Position numbers and translations under genes: made by a program
Notes under the pieces: generated by a model
What the model saw: only the letters and a program-made list of their open reading frames with translations
Databases searched by the model: none
What the model was told of the DNA's origin: nothing
Shown here: positions 70 through 9,927 of the stretch, one piece after another
Layout: each line of letters starts with the position of its first letter
How positions within the stretch are numbered: the stretch's first letter is position 1
Origin: Novosphingobium sp. SG707
GTDB lineage: Bacteria; Pseudomonadota; Alphaproteobacteria; Sphingomonadales; Sphingomonadaceae
DNA length: 64,000 bases
Assembly: GCF_012275515.1 (NCBI RefSeq)
Contig: NZ_JAAZQL010000005.1
Coordinates: 1-64,000 of the forward strand
Direction: 5' to 3'

Positions 70-1035
70 TCAGGCGGCCTCAATCGGGCCGTTACCCATT
101 TCCATGGCCAGCGTCGCTTGCCGGCAAAGGAGCGCCGTAACTACCTCGAAGACCTCAATCTCGTTTAAATCTAACGGCCAGTTCGCCAATCTAATACGGA
201 GATCAGCCCGAACCGCATTTCGATAATCAAAGACGAATTGCTCAAGTGAATCTTCACTATCGATAGTTTCGTCTTCGAGTGTGTCTAGAAATAGACAGGG
301 GCCGAAGCCGGAGATATGGTCCCAAAATGCCTCAACCCATAATACGTCGACTTCAAAGCCGGCGTCATCAAGGTTAACCTCCATGAACAGTGTTGGAGCG
401 GCAGCTCGAAAGGCGCCGGCAGCGCGACGCGCCTCCTCTGTCTCTGGATAGCCGTTAATAACCTTGAACCGTGCGACAAGGTCATCGATCAGATGCGCTG
501 CGATATGAATCTTTCCTTGGTCGATTCCCAACTCGTAGCCAAGTGCTGATGACAGCACCGCCGTGCGACTGTTGCGGTCGTAAAACTCGCGGAGCAGTTC
601 GGGAAAGCGCGTATTCTGCTCAGGTACAGCGTCCATTTTTCCTAGGAATGCCAACGGATGGTCGGGCATCACGGCCGCCAGTGGTGCCAGAGATCGGCGG
701 ATGGCTTTTAGACTGACCTGATCAAGTGTAGATATTATCGCTTCTTTTGCCGCGTCTGAAAGCTCCGCGAACGTGCTGAACTTAACAAACATGGGACATT
801 CAGCCCCATTCATCGCCGTACGAGCGGCTTGACCTAAAGCACGGCAATGGCCCCGAGCTGCCTCGTAGCCACAATGGTCGATCACCAGGCCAAGCCAGAG
901 AACCTCGGGCACAAGCTGACGGGTCCAGGAATATTGGGACAGTTTGCCCCCGAGTTTATGCAAAAAGGACGGCACGAGCTTACGTTTGACCGCTACGTGG
1001 TCCTGCAAGACTGGCTTGCGTGTCTCATTAGTCAA
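70..1035 (-). CDS. DUF5677-like protein, fused and C-terminally truncated paralogue
   Basis: No firm function. The protein (about 321 residues from the chosen start) is clearly related to the two consecutive genes at 4582-5310 and 3762-4580. Its first 280 or so residues match the former, with shared blocks PVLxDH, KLV, PE(V/L)LW, YPETE and AFW. Its last 45 residues match the N-terminus of the latter (RLxxWP(L/P)D, ExV, RQATL). Homology stops just after RQATL, so most of the second half is missing. The open frame extends to 1074, but a TTG at 1035 preceded by GGGGAAG mirrors the ATG and ribosome site of the homologue at 5310, so I prefer it. It is divergent from the SEC-C nuclease-like gene. 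Base composition is poorer in GC than the chromosome further right. Confidence 0.6.
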   Translation of the reverse strand: MTNETRKPVLQDHVAVKRKLVPSFLHKLGGKLSQYSWTRQLVPEVLWLGLVIDHCGYEAARGHCRALGQAARTAMNGAECPMFVKFSTFAELSDAAKEAIISTLDQVSLKAIRRSLAPLAAVMPDHPLAFLGKMDAVPEQNTRFPELLREFYDRNSRTAVLSSALGYELGIDQGKIHIAAHLIDDLVARFKVINGYPETEEARRAAGAFRAAAPTLFMEVNLDDAGFEVDVLWVEAFWDHISGFGPCLFLDTLEDETIDSEDSLEQFVFDYRNAVRADLRIRLANWPLDLNEIEVFEVVTALLCRQATLAMEMGNGPIEAA

Positions 1036-1177
1036 CGCTCTTCCCCTCGTTCTTCCCGGTCGAACAATCGCCACTTACGCATGGTGCCGGTCACTATCGT
1101 CATTGGTAATTATTTGCAGCACATTTAGGATAGATTGTGCAGTATCGTGACTTTAGAAATGTCAGGCATAAGTAGTT

Positions 1178-3511
1178 ATGAACGAGGAAAAACGAAAAGA
1201 GGCAGCTGCTTCCTTGTTGAAAGACATGGAGGCTACAGCAGCTCGGATGCGCGAGCTTATCGTCGCGATGCCCCCACATGATCTGCTCGGCTACATCTAC
1301 GCCCAGCATATGATGAAAGCGATGGTAGACCAAAGCGCCGAGGAGGAGCAACGCGAAGCGGACGGCCCAAATGACTTGATCAACGAAAACCAATTTCTGC
1401 TGGAGTACGTACACGCGGTGCTCGCGTCAGACGATGCCCCTGCGGACGTGACATTCGACGAAGCCCAATGCGCCGAGCTGTTTGAACTTAGCCGCAAACT
1501 GCGAGAGCAGGCTATGTTCTTTGCCATGGCCACGTCTGCCGATACCAAGGACGGCGTCTTTGGTCCCGACACAGCCGACATTGAATTCCGCGCGAAATCG
1601 ACCTGGGTCATGCTACGCGGGAACCGCTACCAAGTCTTGGAAGGTGAGTTCTACAGCTACGTTTTGGCGCCTCACAATGATGTCTTGAAAGAAGTTTACG
1701 GTGTTGGTGCCGCCGATATCGCGGAAGGCTTCCAGGCCATGGCCGACGCCACCCGCTCTGGGCATGCCGACGCTATCATGGAGATGATTAAGCAGTTTGA
1801 GGCGGCACAGGCCTTCGCTGCGGCACAGGACAGGCCTCTGGAAGACGTCATGGAGGCATGGATTGCGGCCAATGCGGAACAGTCGAAAGCCGCTGGGCGG
1901 GCGATGGACGACATGTTTCGGGGCGGCATCGCCAACGTGAGTCGACACACTACGCTACCGCCTACGTTGCTGGCGGATTTGGCTTACCGGCGCGGAGAAG
2001 AAACCGAATTTTTCGCAGCGGGCGATTTTTCGGGAACACCCTACCGGACACTGCCTGCCAGGAAGAAGCCCCTGATTCAGCTTGGAGCGGACTACTACGC
2101 CATCGACCCGTGCTTCACCCGCGACGCTGGGTATCGTGCGCTTCTCTACAACCTTCTGCGGCGAAAGCCGGACTACAAGAAAACTTTTGAGGATCGACAG
2201 AAGAGGATGAGCGAAGCTGCCTTCGCCGACATTCTGGCCGCCCAGCTTCCTGGAGCCACGGTTTTTCAAGAAGTCTACTATAAAGACCCTGCCAGCAAGC
2301 AGTGGTCCGAAAACGACACCCTGATCCTGGTCGACGACGTGCTGTTCCTGGTTGAAGCCAAGGCAGGTGCGGCTGCGACCATTGCATCGCCAGCACTTGA
2401 TTTCGGCCGCCACGCCCAGTCCGTTCAGGACTTGGTACTCAAAGCCTACAAGCAATGTGAGCGCTTCTTCAATTATCTGAATTCGGCGGATGAAGTGCCG
2501 CTCTACCACTTGGCGGACGGCAAATACGAAGAGTGCGGCCGTGTCCGCCGCTCCGACTACCGCGTGATGGTGCCGATCGGGCTGACGGTCGAGTCGTTCT
2601 CGCCCTTTTCCACATACTGTAAGGAACTGCCGCAAGTTGAGCCGCTGCTTGGAAGGCATGCCTTCGTTTCGCTGTCCATCGACGAACTATTTGTCCTCAA
2701 GCGTCTTCTGCCCACACCCGGCGAGTTCGTCCACTACATGGAGGTGCGGCAGGCCGTGGCAGGTATGCGCCGGGCTCATTTCTTTGACGAGTTCGACCAC
2801 CTGGGCGCGTACCTGAAGAAAAACCGTTTCGATCAGAACATTGCCGAGCAGCTGAAGGGCGGCAAGGCGAGCATGCTTATCTGGGACGGCATGAGCGACA
2901 TCGTCGACAGGAGCTTCGAGGGGGAAGACTGGGAAAGCCGACGGTTTCCGACGCAGGACCTCCCGGAAGAGGTGCTGAACCTACTTAGGGCGCTCGATGC
3001 TACCCGAGCACGCGGGTGGCTCTCAGCGGAGAGCCATATCCGTGACCTTGGGGAGGAAGGCCGGAATAATCTGGCCAAGATGCTGTCCGACCTTCGCCAA
3101 ACCCTGAACCAGCATCCCGCTCGCTATTTTACTCTCTCCGGGGACGGCGAGCCGCTCTTCGTTTGGCTTCAACAACACGACCACCAAATTGACTGGACCA
3201 GGGTGAATAACAAGGCCAGCGCAGCTGCGTTGGCCGTCAAGGCTTCTAACATCATCGGCATCGTGGCAGAGGTTAGTGCCGACGGAACCTACTACCGGGC
3301 GCAGTCTTTCGCGGTCTACATACCGACAGAGCGAACGGAAGAAAACGCCCACATCTACGAAGACGCCGCGCGAATGGCTCAACCCACGCGGGCGGTAAAT
3401 CTCAACCAGCCGAGAGGTGTCGCCCCACCTGTGAAGACCAAAAAGCCTGGGCGGAATGATCCGTGTCCGTGTGGCAGCGGTGTAAAGTACAAGAAGTGTC
3501 ATGGCCGTTAG
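1178..3511 (+). CDS. Putative PD-(D/E)XK nuclease-like protein with C-terminal SEC-C zinc motif
   Basis: This 777-residue protein is not a family I can name. Residues 1-130 are helical and charged. Around residues 345-430 there is a stretch typical of restriction-endonuclease folds: a glutamate-bearing helix, a strand, Asp380, then a hydrophobic strand ending in Glu393-Ala-Lys395, followed by a helix with KAYKQ. This gives a D-(12)-ExK spacing. The last 22 residues form a SEC-C motif (CPC, eight residues, CH), a zinc-binding tail found on SecA and many accessory proteins. The gene stands alone on the plus strand, with DUF5677-like genes on the minus strand at both sides. The ATG at 1178 has a weak ribosome site, so a later start is possible. 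A nucleic-acid-cleaving role, perhaps in defence, is inferred from the motif and setting only. Confidence 0.6.
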   Translation: MNEEKRKEAAASLLKDMEATAARMRELIVAMPPHDLLGYIYAQHMMKAMVDQSAEEEQREADGPNDLINENQFLLEYVHAVLASDDAPADVTFDEAQCAELFELSRKLREQAMFFAMATSADTKDGVFGPDTADIEFRAKSTWVMLRGNRYQVLEGEFYSYVLAPHNDVLKEVYGVGAADIAEGFQAMADATRSGHADAIMEMIKQFEAAQAFAAAQDRPLEDVMEAWIAANAEQSKAAGRAMDDMFRGGIANVSRHTTLPPTLLADLAYRRGEETEFFAAGDFSGTPYRTLPARKKPLIQLGADYYAIDPCFTRDAGYRALLYNLLRRKPDYKKTFEDRQKRMSEAAFADILAAQLPGATVFQEVYYKDPASKQWSENDTLILVDDVLFLVEAKAGAAATIASPALDFGRHAQSVQDLVLKAYKQCERFFNYLNSADEVPLYHLADGKYEECGRVRRSDYRVMVPIGLTVESFSPFSTYCKELPQVEPLLGRHAFVSLSIDELFVLKRLLPTPGEFVHYMEVRQAVAGMRRAHFFDEFDHLGAYLKKNRFDQNIAEQLKGGKASMLIWDGMSDIVDRSFEGEDWESRRFPTQDLPEEVLNLLRALDATRARGWLSAESHIRDLGEEGRNNLAKMLSDLRQTLNQHPARYFTLSGDGEPLFVWLQQHDHQIDWTRVNNKASAAALAVKASNIIGIVAEVSADGTYYRAQSFAVYIPTERTEENAHIYEDAARMAQPTRAVNLNQPRGVAPPVKTKKPGRNDPCPCGSGVKYKKCHGR

Positions 3512-3603
3512 GGATAGGCCAACCAATAGAAATTGATAAACGTCCAGGGAATGACGGCTTTTTAGAGCGTGAATATTTTGGAGGAGCATGGAGGCATTTA
3601 TAG

Positions 3604-3621
3604 CATAGACGTCGATCTATG
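3604..3621. repeat. Small inverted repeat in the 3512-3761 gap
   Basis: CATAGA and TCTATG arms flank the six bases CGTCGA. The element lies in the 250 bp between the convergent ends of the SEC-C gene and the DUF5677-like gene. There is no T-run, so it is not an obvious terminator, and I see no gene in the gap. Confidence 0.3.
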
Positions 3622-3761
3622 TTTCGTCGACTTCGGCCCGCCAGAATCGCCAATTGCTCTCCACAGCGGGACATGGCCGCATTGTCCCAAACCGCATGGC
3701 AAACCGCCGATTCCACGCTATCGCCCGATACCTGTCTGTCTGAAATGGCGCGCCACCCGCG

Positions 3762-4580
3762 TCATTCCGACTGCGGATCGGCGCTGCTATCGGTGACGGC
3801 ATCAATCAGCGTCTCGTAAGATGATGGCCCCCGGAACGCGAGCCCGTGTGCTCGATCGAATGTGCCAAGCGTCTTGCTCCAATATTTCGCGGCGAGCGTC
3901 AGATAATGAACGTCCGGGCCGAGTGCCTCGCTGGTCGGACGACGATGATGCCGGTGCAGTGGATTGCCACACTCCCTGAGATCGTAACGTGCAACATGGT
4001 GCCACATCGAATGCGTGCAGGCGCTGAACGGAGTGTAAACATAGTTGTAAAAATCAATGCAGTTGGCCTCTTCAGCCATTTGACGAACCGACAGGCTCGA
4101 CCATTTTCCAAGGTCAACATCGAGCAACCAGCCGATCCGCTGATTGTCGATCCACCTCTCGCCGGCTTCCAGCATGGTCGCCTCTTGCGGCGTCAGCTCG
4201 CGAGTTCCGATCTGCGCGCGGCGATGCTCGAGTTCGAGTTTAGCCTGACCTAATCCAAACAGTACGAACTTCCGGCAGCGCTCGACCGGATCTAGCAACA
4301 GCCACGCGATGTTGATGTAAGCGTCGGCCATTGCGCGTAGCAGGATGGGCGCACTATGCCCGGTCCACAGCGCGGGCGCGCGTGCGACGTCCTTGGAGAG
4401 CGTCGCCTGTCGTGCGAGCATGCCGCCGATCACTTCGTGGACGTGGATCTGAGAAAAGTCGGGAGGCCATGCCTCCAGGCGCGCCGTGAGCTCGTGATCG
4501 ACGTTTGTACAATAGCTCTCGATGAGCGGCCAAATTTCTAAGCCTTCGTCATCCTGACCATCAGCCTCCTGCTGAGTCAC
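3762..4580 (-). CDS. DUF5677-like protein (second half of a split pair)
   Basis: The protein has about 272 residues. Its central part (INIAWLL, then ERCRKFVLFGLGQAKLE, later FYNYVYTPFSACTHSMWHH) resembles DUF5677, an uncharacterised helical family. The open frame extends to a GTG at 4613. However, a GTG at 4580, one base after the stop of the upstream gene and with GAGGA eight bases before it, fits translational coupling better. In the paralogue at 70-1035 the equivalent boundary is fused in one frame. Function is unknown. It is transcribed with 4582-5310 and converges with the SEC-C gene. Confidence 0.6.
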   Translation of the reverse strand: MTQQEADGQDDEGLEIWPLIESYCTNVDHELTARLEAWPPDFSQIHVHEVIGGMLARQATLSKDVARAPALWTGHSAPILLRAMADAYINIAWLLLDPVERCRKFVLFGLGQAKLELEHRRAQIGTRELTPQEATMLEAGERWIDNQRIGWLLDVDLGKWSSLSVRQMAEEANCIDFYNYVYTPFSACTHSMWHHVARYDLRECGNPLHRHHRRPTSEALGPDVHYLTLAAKYWSKTLGTFDRAHGLAFRGPSSYETLIDAVTDSSADPQSE

Positions 4581-4581
4581 A

Positions 4582-5310
4582 TCAATCCTCGCACTGTTCG
4601 AGTTCCAAACCACGGTTCCAGAAAGCGGTCGGCCAATCGGTCCCCGACGCCATCATGTCGGCGTCACCGAACATCTGATTGAGGGTCGCGCGGATCGACG
4701 CGGCGATCCGCTGTGACTGCTCGGTTTCGGGGTAATCTTCGATCCGGGGAAAATCAGCGAGTGCCAAGCCCGCCGAGACCTTGAGTCGATCAGCATCGAA
4801 TGCAAGCCATGTCGCGGTCGCCTGAACCATGATGGCGCACGTCGATGAGCGATCGAGTAACACGCCAACCAGTGTCTTGAGCGCGCCGAGATCTTGTAAC
4901 CAGCTTTCTCGCGTCGCCGCTTGCGCCAGTTCGCGCATGGGGTGGTCTGGGTAGTGGGCATGGAGCGGCGCGAGCGGTCCGCACAGATCATCCCGATAAG
5001 ACCGGCCTTCCACGATGCTCGAAAGCACGCCTCTTGGTAGAGAGGCGAACTTGCCAGCCGCTGCCCAAATCGTGCGGCCATGCGTTGGATCGCTTACACG
5101 CAAGTCGCGAGTAAAGGCGGTTATGATTTCAACGCCACGACGAGGACCCCAGGCTTCCTGCACGAGCGCGATCCACAAAAGTTCCGGAATCATCATGTTG
5201 ATCCACGACACCTCGTGCATTGGTCCGAATGCGTCGTTGAACGGAGTCACTAGCTTGGATTTGATGCGCCTGTGATCGTCAAGCACCGGCGTTCGCTTGT
5301 TTTCATTCAT
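4582..5310 (-). CDS. Hypothetical protein, N-terminal partner of the DUF5677-like gene
   Basis: This protein of about 242 residues starts at the ATG at 5310, preceded by GGGGAAG; the open frame itself continues upstream to 5412. It aligns along its whole length with the N-terminal 280 residues of the fused gene at 70-1035. Conserved blocks include the PVLxDH near the start, PELLW, YPETE and TAFW. No catalytic motif is apparent; it is predicted to be a soluble helical protein. Its stop codon is one base before the start of 3762-4580, so the two are probably co-translated and may act as one unit. Confidence 0.6.
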   Translation of the reverse strand: MNENKRTPVLDDHRRIKSKLVTPFNDAFGPMHEVSWINMMIPELLWIALVQEAWGPRRGVEIITAFTRDLRVSDPTHGRTIWAAAGKFASLPRGVLSSIVEGRSYRDDLCGPLAPLHAHYPDHPMRELAQAATRESWLQDLGALKTLVGVLLDRSSTCAIMVQATATWLAFDADRLKVSAGLALADFPRIEDYPETEQSQRIAASIRATLNQMFGDADMMASGTDWPTAFWNRGLELEQCED

Positions 5311-5543
5311 AACTTCCCCGGTACAGCGTCGGTAGAGATCGTCTTGGGTATAACGAAAGATAATGTGACGGAATGATGCCGCCAAATCACCGATTTTTCC
5401 ACCGTTAGACACTCAAACACCGCCGAAAATCGCCGATTCCCGCACTGCTCGGAATATCCATATAATTGTCAGAGACTTACAATGATTTCATAGTGCTCAT
5501 CTTCGTCGGGTGCTGTCCGCCATTTGGGTGCTTTCCGCCCCCC

Positions 5544-6000
5544 TCACAACTGCTCGAGATAGCGCTCCAGCCGGAAGAAATTGGCTTGCGGTGCGCCCGG
5601 CGCGATCGATACCGTGAAAGAGGGGGTTTGGGCCAGCCCGTCGCCGTCCACAAAGGCGCCGCAGATGAAATCCCTCGGCTTGATCAGCGTCCATTGCAGA
5701 TGCGCGCCGCCCACCGGATATTGCGCGGCAGGCTCCATCCCGTCGATATGGCGCACGATGGTGAACACCTTGACCAGCCGGTTGTGGCCGCGCGGCGCGA
5801 TGCGGTAAAGGTCGGCGGCCTGCGCATGGCGATAGCCATCGTCGCCATAGGCTTTCAGCAGAAGATCGTGAACATGGGGGCGCTGTTTGTCCAGCTTTTC
5901 GGTTTCGGCGGGCACGCCCATCTGCCCGCCGGACCGCATGGCGGTGCCCGCATAGATGAAGCTGCGGCTGAATTTGCGCACGAATTTCTCGTCAATCACG
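5544..6000 (-). pseudogene. C-terminal fragment of an unidentified protein
   Basis: About 150 codons with the high-GC codon use of the chromosome read cleanly on the minus strand and end in TGA at 5544. The fragment includes IYAGTAMRSGGQ, HDLLLKAYGDDGYRHAQ and FRLERYLEQL. I do not recognise the family. Upstream, near position 6000, coding character on this strand stops where the oppositely oriented CHAT fragment begins, so the 5' part was probably lost by recombination. A short intact gene starting at an internal Met cannot be excluded. Confidence 0.4.
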
Positions 6001-6432
6001 CCCACAGGACAGGTCCTGTCCGATGGCATGTTGTCCTTTGACGAGGTGGCCAAGCTGGAACTGGATGCCAATCTGGTGGTGCTCTCGGCCTGTGACACGG
6101 CGGCGGGCACCAGCGTCCAGACCGCGCTCAAGGCCGGGCTGGAAAGCGCTTCGCCCGCGCTTGACGGGCTGGTGCGTTCCTTTATCGCGGCGGGCGCGCG
6201 CACGGTCATGGCCACGTTCTGGGCCGTACCGGTGCTGACCCAGACCGACGATCTGATGTCCACCTTCTACCGCACCGGGCGCAGCGCCACCATGGCCGGC
6301 GCGATCAAGACCGCGCAGGACCAGATGATCGACACCCGCCGCTTTTCCCACCCCTATTACTGGGGCGCCTATTTTCTGGTGGGCGACGGGGCCAAGTCGA
6401 TGCTGACGCCGACACAGGTGGCGATGCGGTAA
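6000..6432 (+). pseudogene. C-terminal remnant of a CHAT-domain protein
   Basis: The last 140 or so codons match the end of CHAT domains (caspase HetF associated with TPRs). The Cys strand LVVLSACDT is followed by the helix with SFIAAGARTVMATFWAV, then an FY helix, and the terminal WGAYFLVGDGAKSM. The catalytic His and the TPR repeats that normally come first are missing. The only upstream ATG (5956) lies in sequence that belongs to the other strand's fragment. This is therefore a 5'-truncated relic. CHAT proteases occur in many cell-death and defence modules, but this copy should be inactive. Confidence 0.7.
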
Positions 6433-6466
6433 GGGGAACACTCCGCTTCCATCAACACCTTCATGC

Positions 6467-6499
6467 AAAAAAAGGGCCGGATTGCTCCGGCCCTTTTCC
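6467..6499 (-). terminator. Intrinsic terminator of the OmpA-like gene
   Basis: AAAGGGCCGG and CCGGCCCTTTT pair around the loop ATTGCT. A T-run follows on the minus strand, 20 bases past the stop of the porin gene. On the plus strand it also follows the CHAT remnant. Confidence 0.8.
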
Positions 6500-6518
6500 T
6501 TGCGCGCGATGCGTGGGC

Positions 6519-7637
6519 TCAGTTGCCCGCGCCCGGCCCATAGGTGATTTCCACGCGGCGGTTCTGCAGTTCGCGCACACCATCGGCGGTGGGCACGCGC
6601 TGGTTCGCTTCGCCAAGACCCTGCGTGGTGATCGAGGCGCTGCCGATGCCATGGCTGGTCAAATAGGATTTGACCGATTCGGCACGGCGTTCAGACAGGC
6701 CAAGGTTGTACTTGGGCGAGCCCGAACTGTCGGTGTAGCCGGCCACCATCACCGGCACCGAGGCGCAATTGCCATAGGCCTGGATCGCGCTGTCGAGAAT
6801 TCCGGCCGCTTCGCTCGTGATGTCCGACTTATTCCAATCGAAGAACACGATATAGGGCCCCTTGTTGCAGACCGGAGCGGGGGGCGGGGGCGGCGGAGGC
6901 GGCGGGGGCGGAGCAGGCTCGGGCGGCGGCGGCGGGGGCGGCGGCGGAGCGGGCTCGGGGGCAGGCTCGGCCGCGCGGCCAAAGTTGTAGGTCAGCGTGG
7001 CCAGCACGGAGTGGCTGCGCAGCTTGGCATATTGCTGGAAACCATCACGATTGGCGAAATTGGTGGCGCCATCGGGGCGGAAATAGCGATATCTTATGCC
7101 CAGGTCGACATTCTTGCTGAGCGGAGCGGTGACGCCTGCCAAGGCCTGCCAGGCAAAGCCCTCGTCATGGCCGCGCAGGCCCCCGGCTGCGCCATTGCTG
7201 GACCAGACATTCACGCGGGCATAACCCGCGCCCGCGCCTGCATAGGCCTTGAACATGCCCCATTTGCCAACGCTGAAGAGCGCATTGGCCATGCCCGCGA
7301 CGGTTTCGGTATGGCCGTAAAAGCCATTGCCATTGTTGTAATAGCCATTGGGCAGCGGCGTGCCGTTGGGTCGATATTCGCTCCTGAGCGCCGATTTGTC
7401 GTAGAAACCTTCGGCTTCAAGGCGGAAATTGCCAAAGTCATAGCCGAGCGCGCCGCCCGCCTGCCAGCCTACCTTGGCCCTGTTGTTGCGCTGAAAATTG
7501 CCGCTGCCGTCGCGGATATCGACGCGCTCATGCTGCACTGCGCCGCCTTCGACCGTGACATAGGGTCCGGTTTCGGCATAAGCGGTGGTGGCCAGCGCGG
7601 AAGAGGCCATCGCGGCCGCAATAATCAGATTTCTCAT
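6519..7637 (-). CDS. OmpA-family outer membrane protein
   Basis: This 372-residue protein starts with a Sec signal peptide ending near TAYA. An OmpA-like beta-barrel of about 200 residues follows, with alternating aromatic strands and the motif LDGIRYRYF-type NVDLGIRYRY. Then comes a proline-only linker at about residues 226-256, with two long proline runs. The OmpA/Pal peptidoglycan-binding domain follows (WNKSDIT, GYTDSSG, NLGLSERRAESV, QNRRVEITY), where the Asp and Arg bind diaminopimelate. Its role is to tie the outer membrane to the cell wall. AAGGAAGG precedes the ATG. It is a single gene with its own terminator. Confidence 0.9.
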   Translation of the reverse strand: MRNLIIAAAMASSALATTAYAETGPYVTVEGGAVQHERVDIRDGSGNFQRNNRAKVGWQAGGALGYDFGNFRLEAEGFYDKSALRSEYRPNGTPLPNGYYNNGNGFYGHTETVAGMANALFSVGKWGMFKAYAGAGAGYARVNVWSSNGAAGGLRGHDEGFAWQALAGVTAPLSKNVDLGIRYRYFRPDGATNFANRDGFQQYAKLRSHSVLATLTYNFGRAAEPAPEPAPPPPPPPPPEPAPPPPPPPPPPPAPVCNKGPYIVFFDWNKSDITSEAAGILDSAIQAYGNCASVPVMVAGYTDSSGSPKYNLGLSERRAESVKSYLTSHGIGSASITTQGLGEANQRVPTADGVRELQNRRVEITYGPGAGN

Positions 7638-7789
7638 GGTTTTCCTTCCTTTCGACCCGCGGGCTTGTCATTGGCGAGTGGTGCCTGCGTTTCGACGATG
7701 AAAGAATCGAGACGAGAGAAGGTTGCATGGCCCCGCAGCAAAATTACGTCTTTTTGCGGGCGCAGCACATCGATGGCGCATTTCGCCAT

Positions 7790-7814
7790 GGAACATCCCG
7801 CCCCGGCCGCCATT
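7790..7814 (+). promoter_or_regulatory. EcfG-type promoter candidate before the GlsB-family gene
   Basis: GGAAC, 16 bases, CATT, ending 30 bases before the start codon. Alphaproteobacterial EcfG promoters are GGAAC-N16/17-CGTT. The same GGAAC-N16-CATT form also precedes the lmo0937-type and csbD genes, which strengthens the call. Confidence 0.55.
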
Positions 7815-7843
7815 GATGGGGTATCAGTCAATCAAGGAGAGTA

Positions 7844-8098
7844 ATGATGAGCATTCTCTTATGGCTTCTGATCGGCGCGCTGGTCGGGGCGGTCGCGGGC
7901 ATGATCATGGGCGAAAGCATGGGCCTGTTCGGCAATATCGTCATCGGTGTGGTGGGCGCCTTTATCGGCGGCCTGCTCTTTGCCCATGGCGATATCAACA
8001 ACAGCCCGCTGACGATCGGCAGCTTTTCGGTCTCGCTGGTGGGCGCCATCGTGCTGCTGGGCATCGTCAACCTGTTTCGACGCGGTTCCTTGCGCTGA
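7844..8098 (+). CDS. GlsB/YeaQ/YmgE-family stress membrane protein
   Basis: The 84-residue protein consists of three hydrophobic helices rich in glycine (ALVGAVAGMIMG, NIVIGVVGAFIGGLL, VGAIVLLGIVNLF). This is the pattern of the transglycosylase-associated protein family. These small inner membrane proteins are commonly induced by acid, osmotic or general stress; the molecular role is not settled. AAGGAG precedes the ATG pair at 7844/7847. The GGAAC-type promoter upstream places it in the EcfG general stress regulon by inference. Confidence 0.85.
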   Translation: MMSILLWLLIGALVGAVAGMIMGESMGLFGNIVIGVVGAFIGGLLFAHGDINNSPLTIGSFSVSLVGAIVLLGIVNLFRRGSLR

Positions 8099-8126
8099 AA
8101 CGCTGAAACCATGCGGGCAATTCTCA

Positions 8127-8154
8127 ACGGGCGCGCAGCCCCCTGCGCGCCCGT
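8127..8154. terminator. Bidirectional hairpin between convergent genes
   Basis: Perfect 12 bp arms ACGGGCGCGCAG and CTGCGCGCCCGT with a four-base loop lie between the GlsB-family gene and the stop codon of the SLC13 permease. A strong T-run is absent, but position and stability fit a shared terminator. Confidence 0.6.
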
Positions 8155-9927
8155 CTATAATGGCCAGAAGACATCAATGGCCAGCGTGCCCGCCACAATC
8201 ACCATGACCGACAGGGGCAGGCCCAGCCGCCAGTAATCGCCAAAGCGATAGCCCCCCGGCCCCATCACCAGCGTGTTGCATTGATGGCCGACCGGGGTCA
8301 GGAAATCCGACCCCGCGCCCGTGGCTACCGCCATCAGGAAAGCGTCGGGATTGAGATGCAGCCCGCGCGCCACCCCCACCGCCACCGGCCCCAGCAACAG
8401 CACCGTGGGCGCATTGTGCAAAAAGGGCGAGCAGGCCATCGCCGCCACCATCATCAGCCCCAAGGCCAGAATCGGCGCCACGCCGTCCAGCAGGCCGGTC
8501 ATCACCTGGGCGATGATTTCGGTGCCGCCGCTGTGATGCACCGCCTCGCTGATCGGCGTCAGCGCCCCCAGCAGCACCAGCACCTCGGGTTCCAGCGCGC
8601 CATAGGCCTCGCGCGGGGAGAGCGCGCCCACCACCATCATCATCACCGCCGCGCCGAAAAAGGCCCCTGCCACCGGCGCCACCCCGAAAGCCACCATCAG
8701 CATGGCCCCCGCCAGAACGAGGATCGGCAGGAACCTCTGTCGCCGGTCGCCCAGTTTCACATGGCGTTCAAACAGCGGCAGCAGATCAAGGTCGGTCAGG
8801 ATCGCGGGCAGCGCCCTTTCGCCCGCGCGCAGCACCAGCACATCGCCGGCGCGCAGGGCGGTTTCGTCCAGCCTTTCGGTGATCCGCTCCTGGCTGCGGC
8901 CGATGCCCATCAGGCGGACGCCGAAACGGTCATTCAATCCGACCTCCTGCGCGGTCTGGCCCACCAGCAGCGAATGCTCCTGCACCACCGCCTCGATGCT
9001 GCGCATTTCCTCGCCGGGTTCCGATTTGCTGGGCTGCCGGGTTTCGCGTCCATGCATCAGCGGCACGCGGGCGAACAGGCGGTCGAGCGCCTCGTCCTGC
9101 CCCTCCAGCACAAGGCAACTGTCGGCCTGAAGCGCGGCATCGGGCAGGGCAGGGCGCGCCGCGCCGTCCGGGCCGATCAGCCGCCGCAATGTCACCCCGT
9201 CATCGCTCAGGCGCAGGCTGGCGATCGTGACGCCGCTCTGCGCCAGTTCGGTGGTGATGCGCGCCTCTGTGGCATAGCGCGTCTGGGCCGAGGCGGTATC
9301 GAGGCTGGCCGCGCCCTGCCGCTTGGCGGGCAGCAGGCGCCACGCTACGCTGACCGTCAGCAGGCCGAGCGCCGTCAGCACCAGACCGACCGGGGCAAAA
9401 TCGAACAGGGCAAACGGGCGGCCCAATTCCTGTTGCCGGATCTGGCTGACGATGATGTTGGTGGATGTGCCGACCAGCGTGACCAGCCCGCCCAGCAGCG
9501 ACATGAAGGCCATGGGCATCAGCAGGCTGGCGGGCGATGTGCCGGTCTTGCGGCTCATGCGCAGCGCCACCGGCATCAGGATCGCCAGCGCCCCGACATT
9601 CTTGGTCAGCATCGAAAGCAGCGCGGTGGTGCCCGCCAGGACCGGCACCTGAACCCGCGCGGTGCGCAGCCGTTCCAGCCATGGTCCCACCGCCCATTCG
9701 ATCACCCCCGATCGGGCGATCGCCGCGCTGACCACCAGCGCCGAGCCGACAATGATGACCACATCGCTGGTAAAGCCGGTAAAGGCCTGTTTGACCGGGA
9801 CATCGCCTGTGGCCATCGCAATGACCAGCACGACCAGCGCCACCAGATCATAACGAAACCGCCCCCACACAAACATCGCAATGGCGCCGAACAACAGCGC
9901 AAAAGAGAGGCCTTGAGCATAGGTCAT
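8155..9927 (-). CDS. SLC13-family permease with paired TrkA-C domains
   Basis: This 590-residue inner membrane transporter has about five hydrophobic helices at the N-terminus (with TKNVGALAILMPVAL and VTLVGTSTNIIVSQI). A central cytosolic insert of about 200 residues follows, with two RCK_C/TrkA-C-like repeats (SLRLSDDGVTLRRLIG; FGVRLMGIGRSQERI). The second helix bundle repeats the pattern, with PFLHNAPTVLLLGPVAVG. The paired NxxT-type hairpins are the substrate and sodium sites of the DASS (divalent anion:Na+) family. The substrate is likely sulfate or a dicarboxylate and cannot be decided here. It is monocistronic. Confidence 0.85.
   Translation of the reverse strand: MTYAQGLSFALLFGAIAMFVWGRFRYDLVALVVLVIAMATGDVPVKQAFTGFTSDVVIIVGSALVVSAAIARSGVIEWAVGPWLERLRTARVQVPVLAGTTALLSMLTKNVGALAILMPVALRMSRKTGTSPASLLMPMAFMSLLGGLVTLVGTSTNIIVSQIRQQELGRPFALFDFAPVGLVLTALGLLTVSVAWRLLPAKRQGAASLDTASAQTRYATEARITTELAQSGVTIASLRLSDDGVTLRRLIGPDGAARPALPDAALQADSCLVLEGQDEALDRLFARVPLMHGRETRQPSKSEPGEEMRSIEAVVQEHSLLVGQTAQEVGLNDRFGVRLMGIGRSQERITERLDETALRAGDVLVLRAGERALPAILTDLDLLPLFERHVKLGDRRQRFLPILVLAGAMLMVAFGVAPVAGAFFGAAVMMMVVGALSPREAYGALEPEVLVLLGALTPISEAVHHSGGTEIIAQVMTGLLDGVAPILALGLMMVAAMACSPFLHNAPTVLLLGPVAVGVARGLHLNPDAFLMAVATGAGSDFLTPVGHQCNTLVMGPGGYRFGDYWRLGLPLSVMVIVAGTLAIDVFWPL

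Follow-up and report, generated by a model that had tools for sequence, protein, structure and literature searches.

Described systems that resemble parts of the locus reported here include Shedu, in which SduA is a single-protein PD-(D/E)XK defense and which is defined by DUF4263, and DitAB, the system named Aditi. Millman 2022 reportedly described the latter. Among the matches listed in our literature search, none was a paper on the 777-residue SEC-C protein that is the subject of this study, and the DUF5677 paper among them concerned Salmonella severity (PMC12440251). Term searches found no SEC-C, Upx, or Aditi in the text of PMC10952713, and gave no matches in PMC11514479.

The stretch of Novosphingobium sp. 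SG707 DNA analyzed here (the window) comprises 64,000 nucleotides, bases 1–64000 of contig C5; the genome is 5.64 Mb in 41 contigs. Near its left end lies a gene whose product, the SEC-C nuclease, is probably the representative of a new predicted family of stand-alone, mobile, defense-type nucleases.

A Predicted PD-(D/E)XK Nuclease With a C-Terminal SEC-C Motif

The SEC-C gene runs from 1178 to 3511 on the plus strand, and its 777-residue product is laid out as a helical region, a PD-(D/E)XK core, and a SEC-C motif, as judged from the ORF, Pfam, the structure model, and alignments of relatives. Residues ~1–330 form the helical N-terminal region in the AlphaFold2 model. The core covers residues 331–530 (2168–2767, plus strand), based on secondary structure, invariance, and fold matches, and is followed by a further mixed domain and then by the SEC-C zinc motif at residues 759–777 (3452–3508, plus strand), which is recognized in the alignments and by Pfam (PF02810, 40.2 bits vs. 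a cut-off of 20.4).

Conservation was assessed in three alignments. The largest, of 30 sequences, omits L034 (which carries a stop), L039, L050, L056, L062, L064, L066, and the plasmid and viral copies; the 23-sequence alignment, made for structure prediction, is a subset of the 30 plus three viral-contig copies; and the 11-sequence alignment is a hand-picked spread of relatives. The D380-(12)-E393-x-K395 signature is invariant in all three. Six core residues (E346, D380, E393, K395, Q426, and R429) are invariant in 23/23 and 11/11 aligned sequences, down to 24% identity, and are thus kept in the Photobacterium and Lactococcus plasmid copies that the smallest alignment includes. The SEC-C motif residues are C763, C765, C774, and H775. 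The three cysteines are also invariant in the 23-sequence alignment (24–90% identity to the window protein), and H775 is replaced by cysteine in four distant members of the 11-sequence alignment, which is the substitution expected of a zinc ligand. Comparison with four relatives gave dN/dS values of 0.105–0.153, indicating purifying selection. The original prediction had described just such a protein, with a D-(12)-ExK signature and a C-terminal SEC-C motif, and the ORF, the Pfam match, and the invariant residues all agree with it.

The AlphaFold2 model (mean pLDDT 83.8, pTM 0.81) has a helix-strand-strand-strand-helix order in the core: helix 331–352 (bearing E346), strands 361–369, 376–385 (D380), and 388–395 (E393, K395), and helix 409–434, which bears Q426 and R429. 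D380 and E393/K395 thus sit on neighboring strands with helices before and after, as in PD-(D/E)XK enzymes. The top VIA-align match was Nt.BspD6I (Z 10.4, 170 residues aligned, 3.7 Å), and the other top rows were AF1548 (Z 8.8), Cdn1 (8.1), Card1 (7.5), FokI (7.4), SduA (7.2), and McrBC (7.1), where values below 8 may mean little according to the tool's own note. All seven have the PD-(D/E)XK fold. ABC transporters and other unrelated helical proteins appear in the lower VIA-align rows and the Foldseek list. At E ≤ 0.001, Foldseek found no match to the model in the PDB (best 1.8e-3), and none was found in the viral structure library. Sequence searches recovered the zinc motif alone: PDB matches at E < 0.001 were confined to the SEC-C tails of SecA and YchJ, Pfam and NCBIfam gave no family other than SEC-C at its curated cut-off, and PADLOC 2.0 and PHROGs gave SEC-C-tail matches only. 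Taken together, the order of secondary structure elements, the invariant residues, and the nuclease-type top matches make a nuclease-type PD-(D/E)XK fold a well-supported prediction for the modeled protein, in line with the nuclease reading proposed earlier and with the structural check suggested for it.

DitA-Like Genes and the Left Edge of the Contig

The SEC-C gene is flanked on both sides by genes that match the PADLOC DitA model (486 positions), with E-values in the window of 8e-13, 4.3e-13, and 5.8e-9. To the left, positions 96–1035 on the minus strand hold the N-terminal part of one such gene (8e-13, model positions 5–244; 77% identity to the DitA of locus L053); its probable start is a TTG at 1035, and the ORF as called (70–1074) reads into an insertion. 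The divergent intergenic region between it and the SEC-C gene (1036–1177) lies within DNA common to L053 and L073. To the right, on the minus strand, are an N-terminal half at 4582–5310 (4.3e-13, model positions 5–235; ORF 4582–5412, likely start 5310) and a C-terminal half at 3762–4613 (model positions 306–442), which contains DUF5677 (PF18928, 76.2 bits). The two right-hand ORFs match two halves of the model, so each of the two DUF5677-like "gene sets" of the original prediction is one DitA gene. Both sets do match DitA; DUF5677 itself occurs only in the ORF at 4613–3762, and the left "set" is represented in the window by the N-terminal part of a single gene.

The right-hand halves overlap by 32 bases, and the overlap is identical in Azorhizobium oxalatiphilum (L034), which has the same split and whose DNA matches window positions 1176–5322 at 90.7%. 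Compared with L034, dN/dS is 0.109 for the N-terminal half (242 codons) and 0.164 for the C-terminal half (283 codons). A decayed pseudogene was considered and ruled out, since both halves keep low dN/dS after a split common to both genomes, as expected of ORFs under purifying selection. An intact DitA of 521 residues is found in Rhizobium multihospitium (L053), matching the PADLOC model at 3.1e-19 over residues 9–498. A DitA structure predicted from six sequences was all helical, with a pLDDT of 51.4 that is too poor for a fold search.

Because base 1 of the window is also base 1 of C5, the left edge is where the assembly breaks off. Bases 1–95 (no strand assigned) look like the end of an IS66-like insertion, whose terminal repeat, in the inward direction, reads GTAACGGCCCGATTG; contigs C17 and C24 begin with bases 1–95 as well. 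From base 96 onward the DNA is homologous to the intact L053 DitA, and an 8-bp target duplication, CCATTTCC, occupies positions 96–103. This duplication is present again on C12, and the inverted ends GTAACGGCCCGATTG / GTAACCGCCCGATTG lie beyond it on the two sides. A search of the order, including this genome, with the L053 DitA located residues 2–317 at C5:85–1032 and residues 304–518 at the end of C12 (123829–124473 of 124545). The C12 insertion end (124452–124545) recurs on C31 and C23. IS66 elements have GTAA ends and make 8-bp duplications, and by its ends and duplication this looks like a multi-copy, IS66-like insertion with ends at six contig edges. No interior or transposase was seen joined to these ends; the genome's two IS66 transposase matches lie on C21 and C7. 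From the split DitA, the CCATTTCC duplication, and the inverted multi-copy ends, we infer that C12 and C5 adjoin in the genome.

Within C12:112000–124545 (L158), a serine recombinase ORF (7966–9750 of that stretch) runs over a tRNA-Ser (8043–8133), followed by a helix-turn-helix protein, a 520-residue LA2681-type HEPN protein, and the remaining, C-terminal portion of the left DitA gene. The order of an isomerase gene and the tRNA-Ser is kept in four relatives, and the SEC-C/DitA region therefore looks like an island beside the tRNA gene. The island had been called GC-poor, and it is mildly so (0.565 for 96–5412 vs. 0.650 for 6500–64000). As to the recombination scar proposed at its right end, a search of positions 3501–9000 for a duplicate of the tRNA-Ser end gave no clear repeat and no long copy. 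In the isomerase/tRNA-Ser stretches of the four relatives, those right-hand genes of the window that were tested gave one weak match only, a small membrane protein at 34% identity (L188). On the right side of the island, 5956–6432 (plus strand) encodes a C-terminal CHAT-domain fragment (86 bits, profile positions 173–289), perhaps a gene remnant; the minus-strand ORF beside it (5544–6263) has no Pfam match.

Distribution, Mobility, and Neighbors of the SEC-C Gene

A SEC-C gene of near full length occurs in three of the 296 genomes of the order (G000, G081 at 70%, and G013 at 30%). Some match is present in 251 of the 296; among the matches listed, those not near full length are short and for the most part fall in the SEC-C tails of ORFs about as long as SecA. 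The wider genome collection holds 34 loci (L004 lies inside L055 and the two count as one; L066 is a fragment and L056 partial), spanning alpha-, beta-, and gammaproteobacteria and Trichlorobacter. Ten plasmid records also match, five of them over at least 80% of the gene, with hosts in Aliarcobacter, Rhizobium, Bradyrhizobium, Photobacterium, and Lactococcus, the last of which extends the family to Bacillota. Five near-full copies and one partial copy are on IMG/VR contigs, which are putatively viral; the sole match in the phage collection was SecA. Some copies are broken: L034 (8001–10331) has a stop before the zinc motif, and L062 and L064 have split frames. The Lactococcus dairy plasmid (L072, 5358–8718) has an ORF annotated as NERD, then an IS30, then a separate SEC-C ORF.

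DNA identity of the gene is 90.4% to the copy in the betaproteobacterium Candidimonas humi (L036) and 90.7% to those in the alphaproteobacteria Azorhizobium (L034) and Aureimonas (L035). Across 552 gene-spanning matches in 41 sequences, the common DNA typically stops just within the gene (medians of 9.5 bases after the start and 4 bases before the stop), and 11 pairs have >200 bases in common outside the gene. The ORF itself is the unit shared between hosts.

Neighboring proteins (within 3 kb, at least 150 residues) numbered 135, of which 131 were scanned; the three DitA ORFs found in L034 and L053 were left out, as was L057:2–5086 for its length. At 1e-10, PADLOC matched 53 families among 60 of these proteins and 133 among the other 71, which are counts of families rather than proteins, as several can match one protein. 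The first 25 families listed for each group include mad3, a type I methylase, SoFic, AbiEi, PifA, Avs1b, AriA/AriAB, PtuA, AbiLi, GajB, and Old. No family was matched at that threshold among 40 control proteins, all from one genome (35 from the rest of the window and 5 from C12) and, like the neighbors, from mechanical ORF calling. Plasmid annotations near the gene include Lit (L069), AbiEii, AbiV, SAVED, and HEPN/Toprim (L070), and AbiEi/AbiEii close to the Lactococcus copy (L072). These families and annotations are consistent with the defense setting raised in the original prediction; company of this kind does not prove a defense role.

Recurrent partners are few. An LA2681-type HEPN gene stands beside the SEC-C gene in L035, with a remnant in L073, whereas the genomes of L034 and L053 have no such gene. 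A protein of ~1270 residues with a C-terminal GDFDVLAY...VECKY motif is encoded upstream in L039 (3614–7405), L040 (2276–6103), and L045 (2308–6105); the L040 copy, the only one tested, has weak similarity to Upx (E 2.2e-4) and no Pfam match. It is followed by a 569-residue protein in L045, with no Pfam or PADLOC match, and by pieces of that protein in L039 and L040. An integrase cluster, with one member identified, occurs in six loci. In an Emcibacter MAG (L055), the SEC-C gene adjoins a PAPS-reductase-domain gene and a DUF6544/DUF6920 gene (1807–2538 and 5527–6456).

The plasmid copies, the IMG/VR contigs, the integrase cluster, and the serine recombinase and tRNA-Ser beside the island would also fit a nuclease that serves the mobile elements carrying it, through maintenance, exclusion of rivals, or recombination, rather than phage defense of the host. 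Yet the neighborhoods hold known defense genes too, and the integrase cluster is missing from most loci, so that we regard a role for the element as rather unlikely.

Association Between DitA-Like Genes and the SEC-C Gene

The original prediction held that the same gene pair had repeatedly been kept around one effector, and proposed a search for co-occurrence elsewhere. Of 45 other SEC-C loci searched by tblastn, three (L034, L053, and L073) have a DitA-like neighbor, in each case on a single side, and the left copy in the window is broken; for 39 of the 45, the sequence extends 1 kb or more from the gene in both directions. None was found in the other 42, nor in 18 kb around the 28%-identical copy in G013 (L177). 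Repeated retention of a pair is thus not supported as stated, and an obligate SEC-C/DitA module was rejected as the main reading. Two associations with a gene as rare as DitA are notable all the same.

The rival reading is that the SEC-C nuclease and a DitA-like protein make up one two-gene defense module, in which DitA would sense and the nuclease would cut, replacing DitB. DitA-like genes are directly beside the SEC-C gene in the window and in the three other loci and yet are rare elsewhere, being detected in 1 of 397 other genomes sampled from the phylum and 1 of 295 others in the order (the samples overlap), and in no viral contig. Those beside the SEC-C gene belong to two lineages, 27–45% identical, and stand in two orientations. 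The divergent arrangement is kept in the window, L053, and L073, with continuous DNA homology through both genes (window positions 96–3505 with L053 and 98–3511 with L073). The two genes of the pair have also diverged by similar amounts: window-L053 identity is 76% for the SEC-C protein and 77% for DitA, and dN is 0.140 and 0.152 for window-L053 and 0.113 and 0.093 for L053-L073. A search of five DitA-bearing genomes or records at E ≤ 1 gave no DitB, while a B. subtilis control matched. On the other hand, the loci without DitA count against such a module, as do the differing side and orientation of DitA between loci, the broken left DitA in the window, and the stop in the L034 SEC-C gene. Two DitA-like genes outside SEC-C loci, in G310:C4 (L175:5665–8490) and G166:C3 (L176:6953–8417), lack a SEC-C relative within the 16 kb examined, which argues in the same direction. 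We therefore judge a two-gene module to be quite unlikely, and the flanking DitA-like genes look mostly like separate company of the SEC-C gene. The G310 gene is cut by an IS3-type transposase pair.

More speculatively, DitA-like proteins may be sensors with exchangeable effectors, using the SEC-C nuclease or the LA2681-type HEPN protein (as on C12) where DitB is missing. We consider this very doubtful; if true, the gene-exact boundaries would show recombination swapping effector ORFs beside a sensor.

A Proposed One-Gene Defense Nuclease

The SEC-C gene is a single ORF spread over distant bacteria, often among defense genes, and this patchy spread as a lone gene among phage-defense genes suggests that it is probably a one-gene defense. 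On balance, we favor, with some reserve, the reading that the 777-residue protein is a horizontally spread anti-phage or anti-mobile-element nuclease that would act alone. The helical region, the zinc motif, or both might sense infection or dock the enzyme to a partner; this could allow the D380/E393/K395 site to cleave nucleic acid with the help of metal ions, and cleavage might stop the phage either in itself or through death of the cell. The DitA-like genes on either side would then be separate defense-type genes on the same island and not a required partner. In SecA, SEC-C docks to the ribosome or a chaperone, and the SecA and YchJ tails are the PDB sequence matches noted above, so that an RNA- or translation-linked enzyme docked in this way and cutting RNA might be imagined, yet the highest-ranked folds are DNA nickases or restriction enzymes and Can2/Card1-type nucleases, and we think it highly improbable.

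A one-gene defense nuclease of this kind would matter in several ways. The family has a layout of its own and is met in Pseudomonadota, Campylobacterota, and Bacillota. Beyond the SEC-C tail it matched no model in the libraries searched, so defense finders that draw on these would overlook it. The homology between distant hosts, being nearly ORF-exact, offers a clean case for how single defense genes move. The claim would also be inexpensive to test, since a single gene is involved and its catalytic and zinc residues are evident targets for mutation.

Comparison With Known Systems

The gene sets on both sides of the SEC-C gene match DitA of DitAB; however, no DitB was found, and the right-hand DitA is split in two ORFs. 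NERD enters through the annotation of the Lactococcus relative, and the window protein gave no Pfam NERD match at E ≤ 1 (SEC-C only). GapS1 (NCBIfam NF047931) shows a weak profile match at E ≤ 0.1 in 10 of 23 family members (best 0.002); in the window protein the match spans residues 293–438 and scores 12.6 bits vs. a cut-off of 320, well short of membership.

The longest structural match is to Upx (PDB 9wuf), with a Foldseek probability of 1.00 at the E-value of 1.8e-3 given above and a VIA-align Z of 8.7 over 391 residues (model residues 14–614, rmsd 5.0), a mostly helical part that can inflate Z. The D...ExK motif is C-terminal in two Upx sequences and mid-protein in the 777-residue protein. 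The PADLOC Upx model gave no match at E ≤ 1, and profile-profile comparison gave a probability of 0.1%. Membership by sequence was rejected, with no signal from either a two-sequence Upx profile or a five-sequence profile that included the ~1270-residue neighbors. Upx is thus a lead rather than a family assignment.

Shedu is likewise a one-gene nuclease, and SduA aligns over 142 residues (Z 7.2), tied with other nucleases; no Shedu or DUF4263 model was matched by the window protein at E ≤ 1 in Pfam or PADLOC. The core fold and the catalytic-type residue order are those of PD-(D/E)XK nucleases of the Nt.BspD6I, FokI, Can2-Card1, and McrC type. Identity to these enzymes in the structural alignments is 8–13%, and what sets the 777-residue protein apart from them is its long helical N-terminus and its SEC-C tail.
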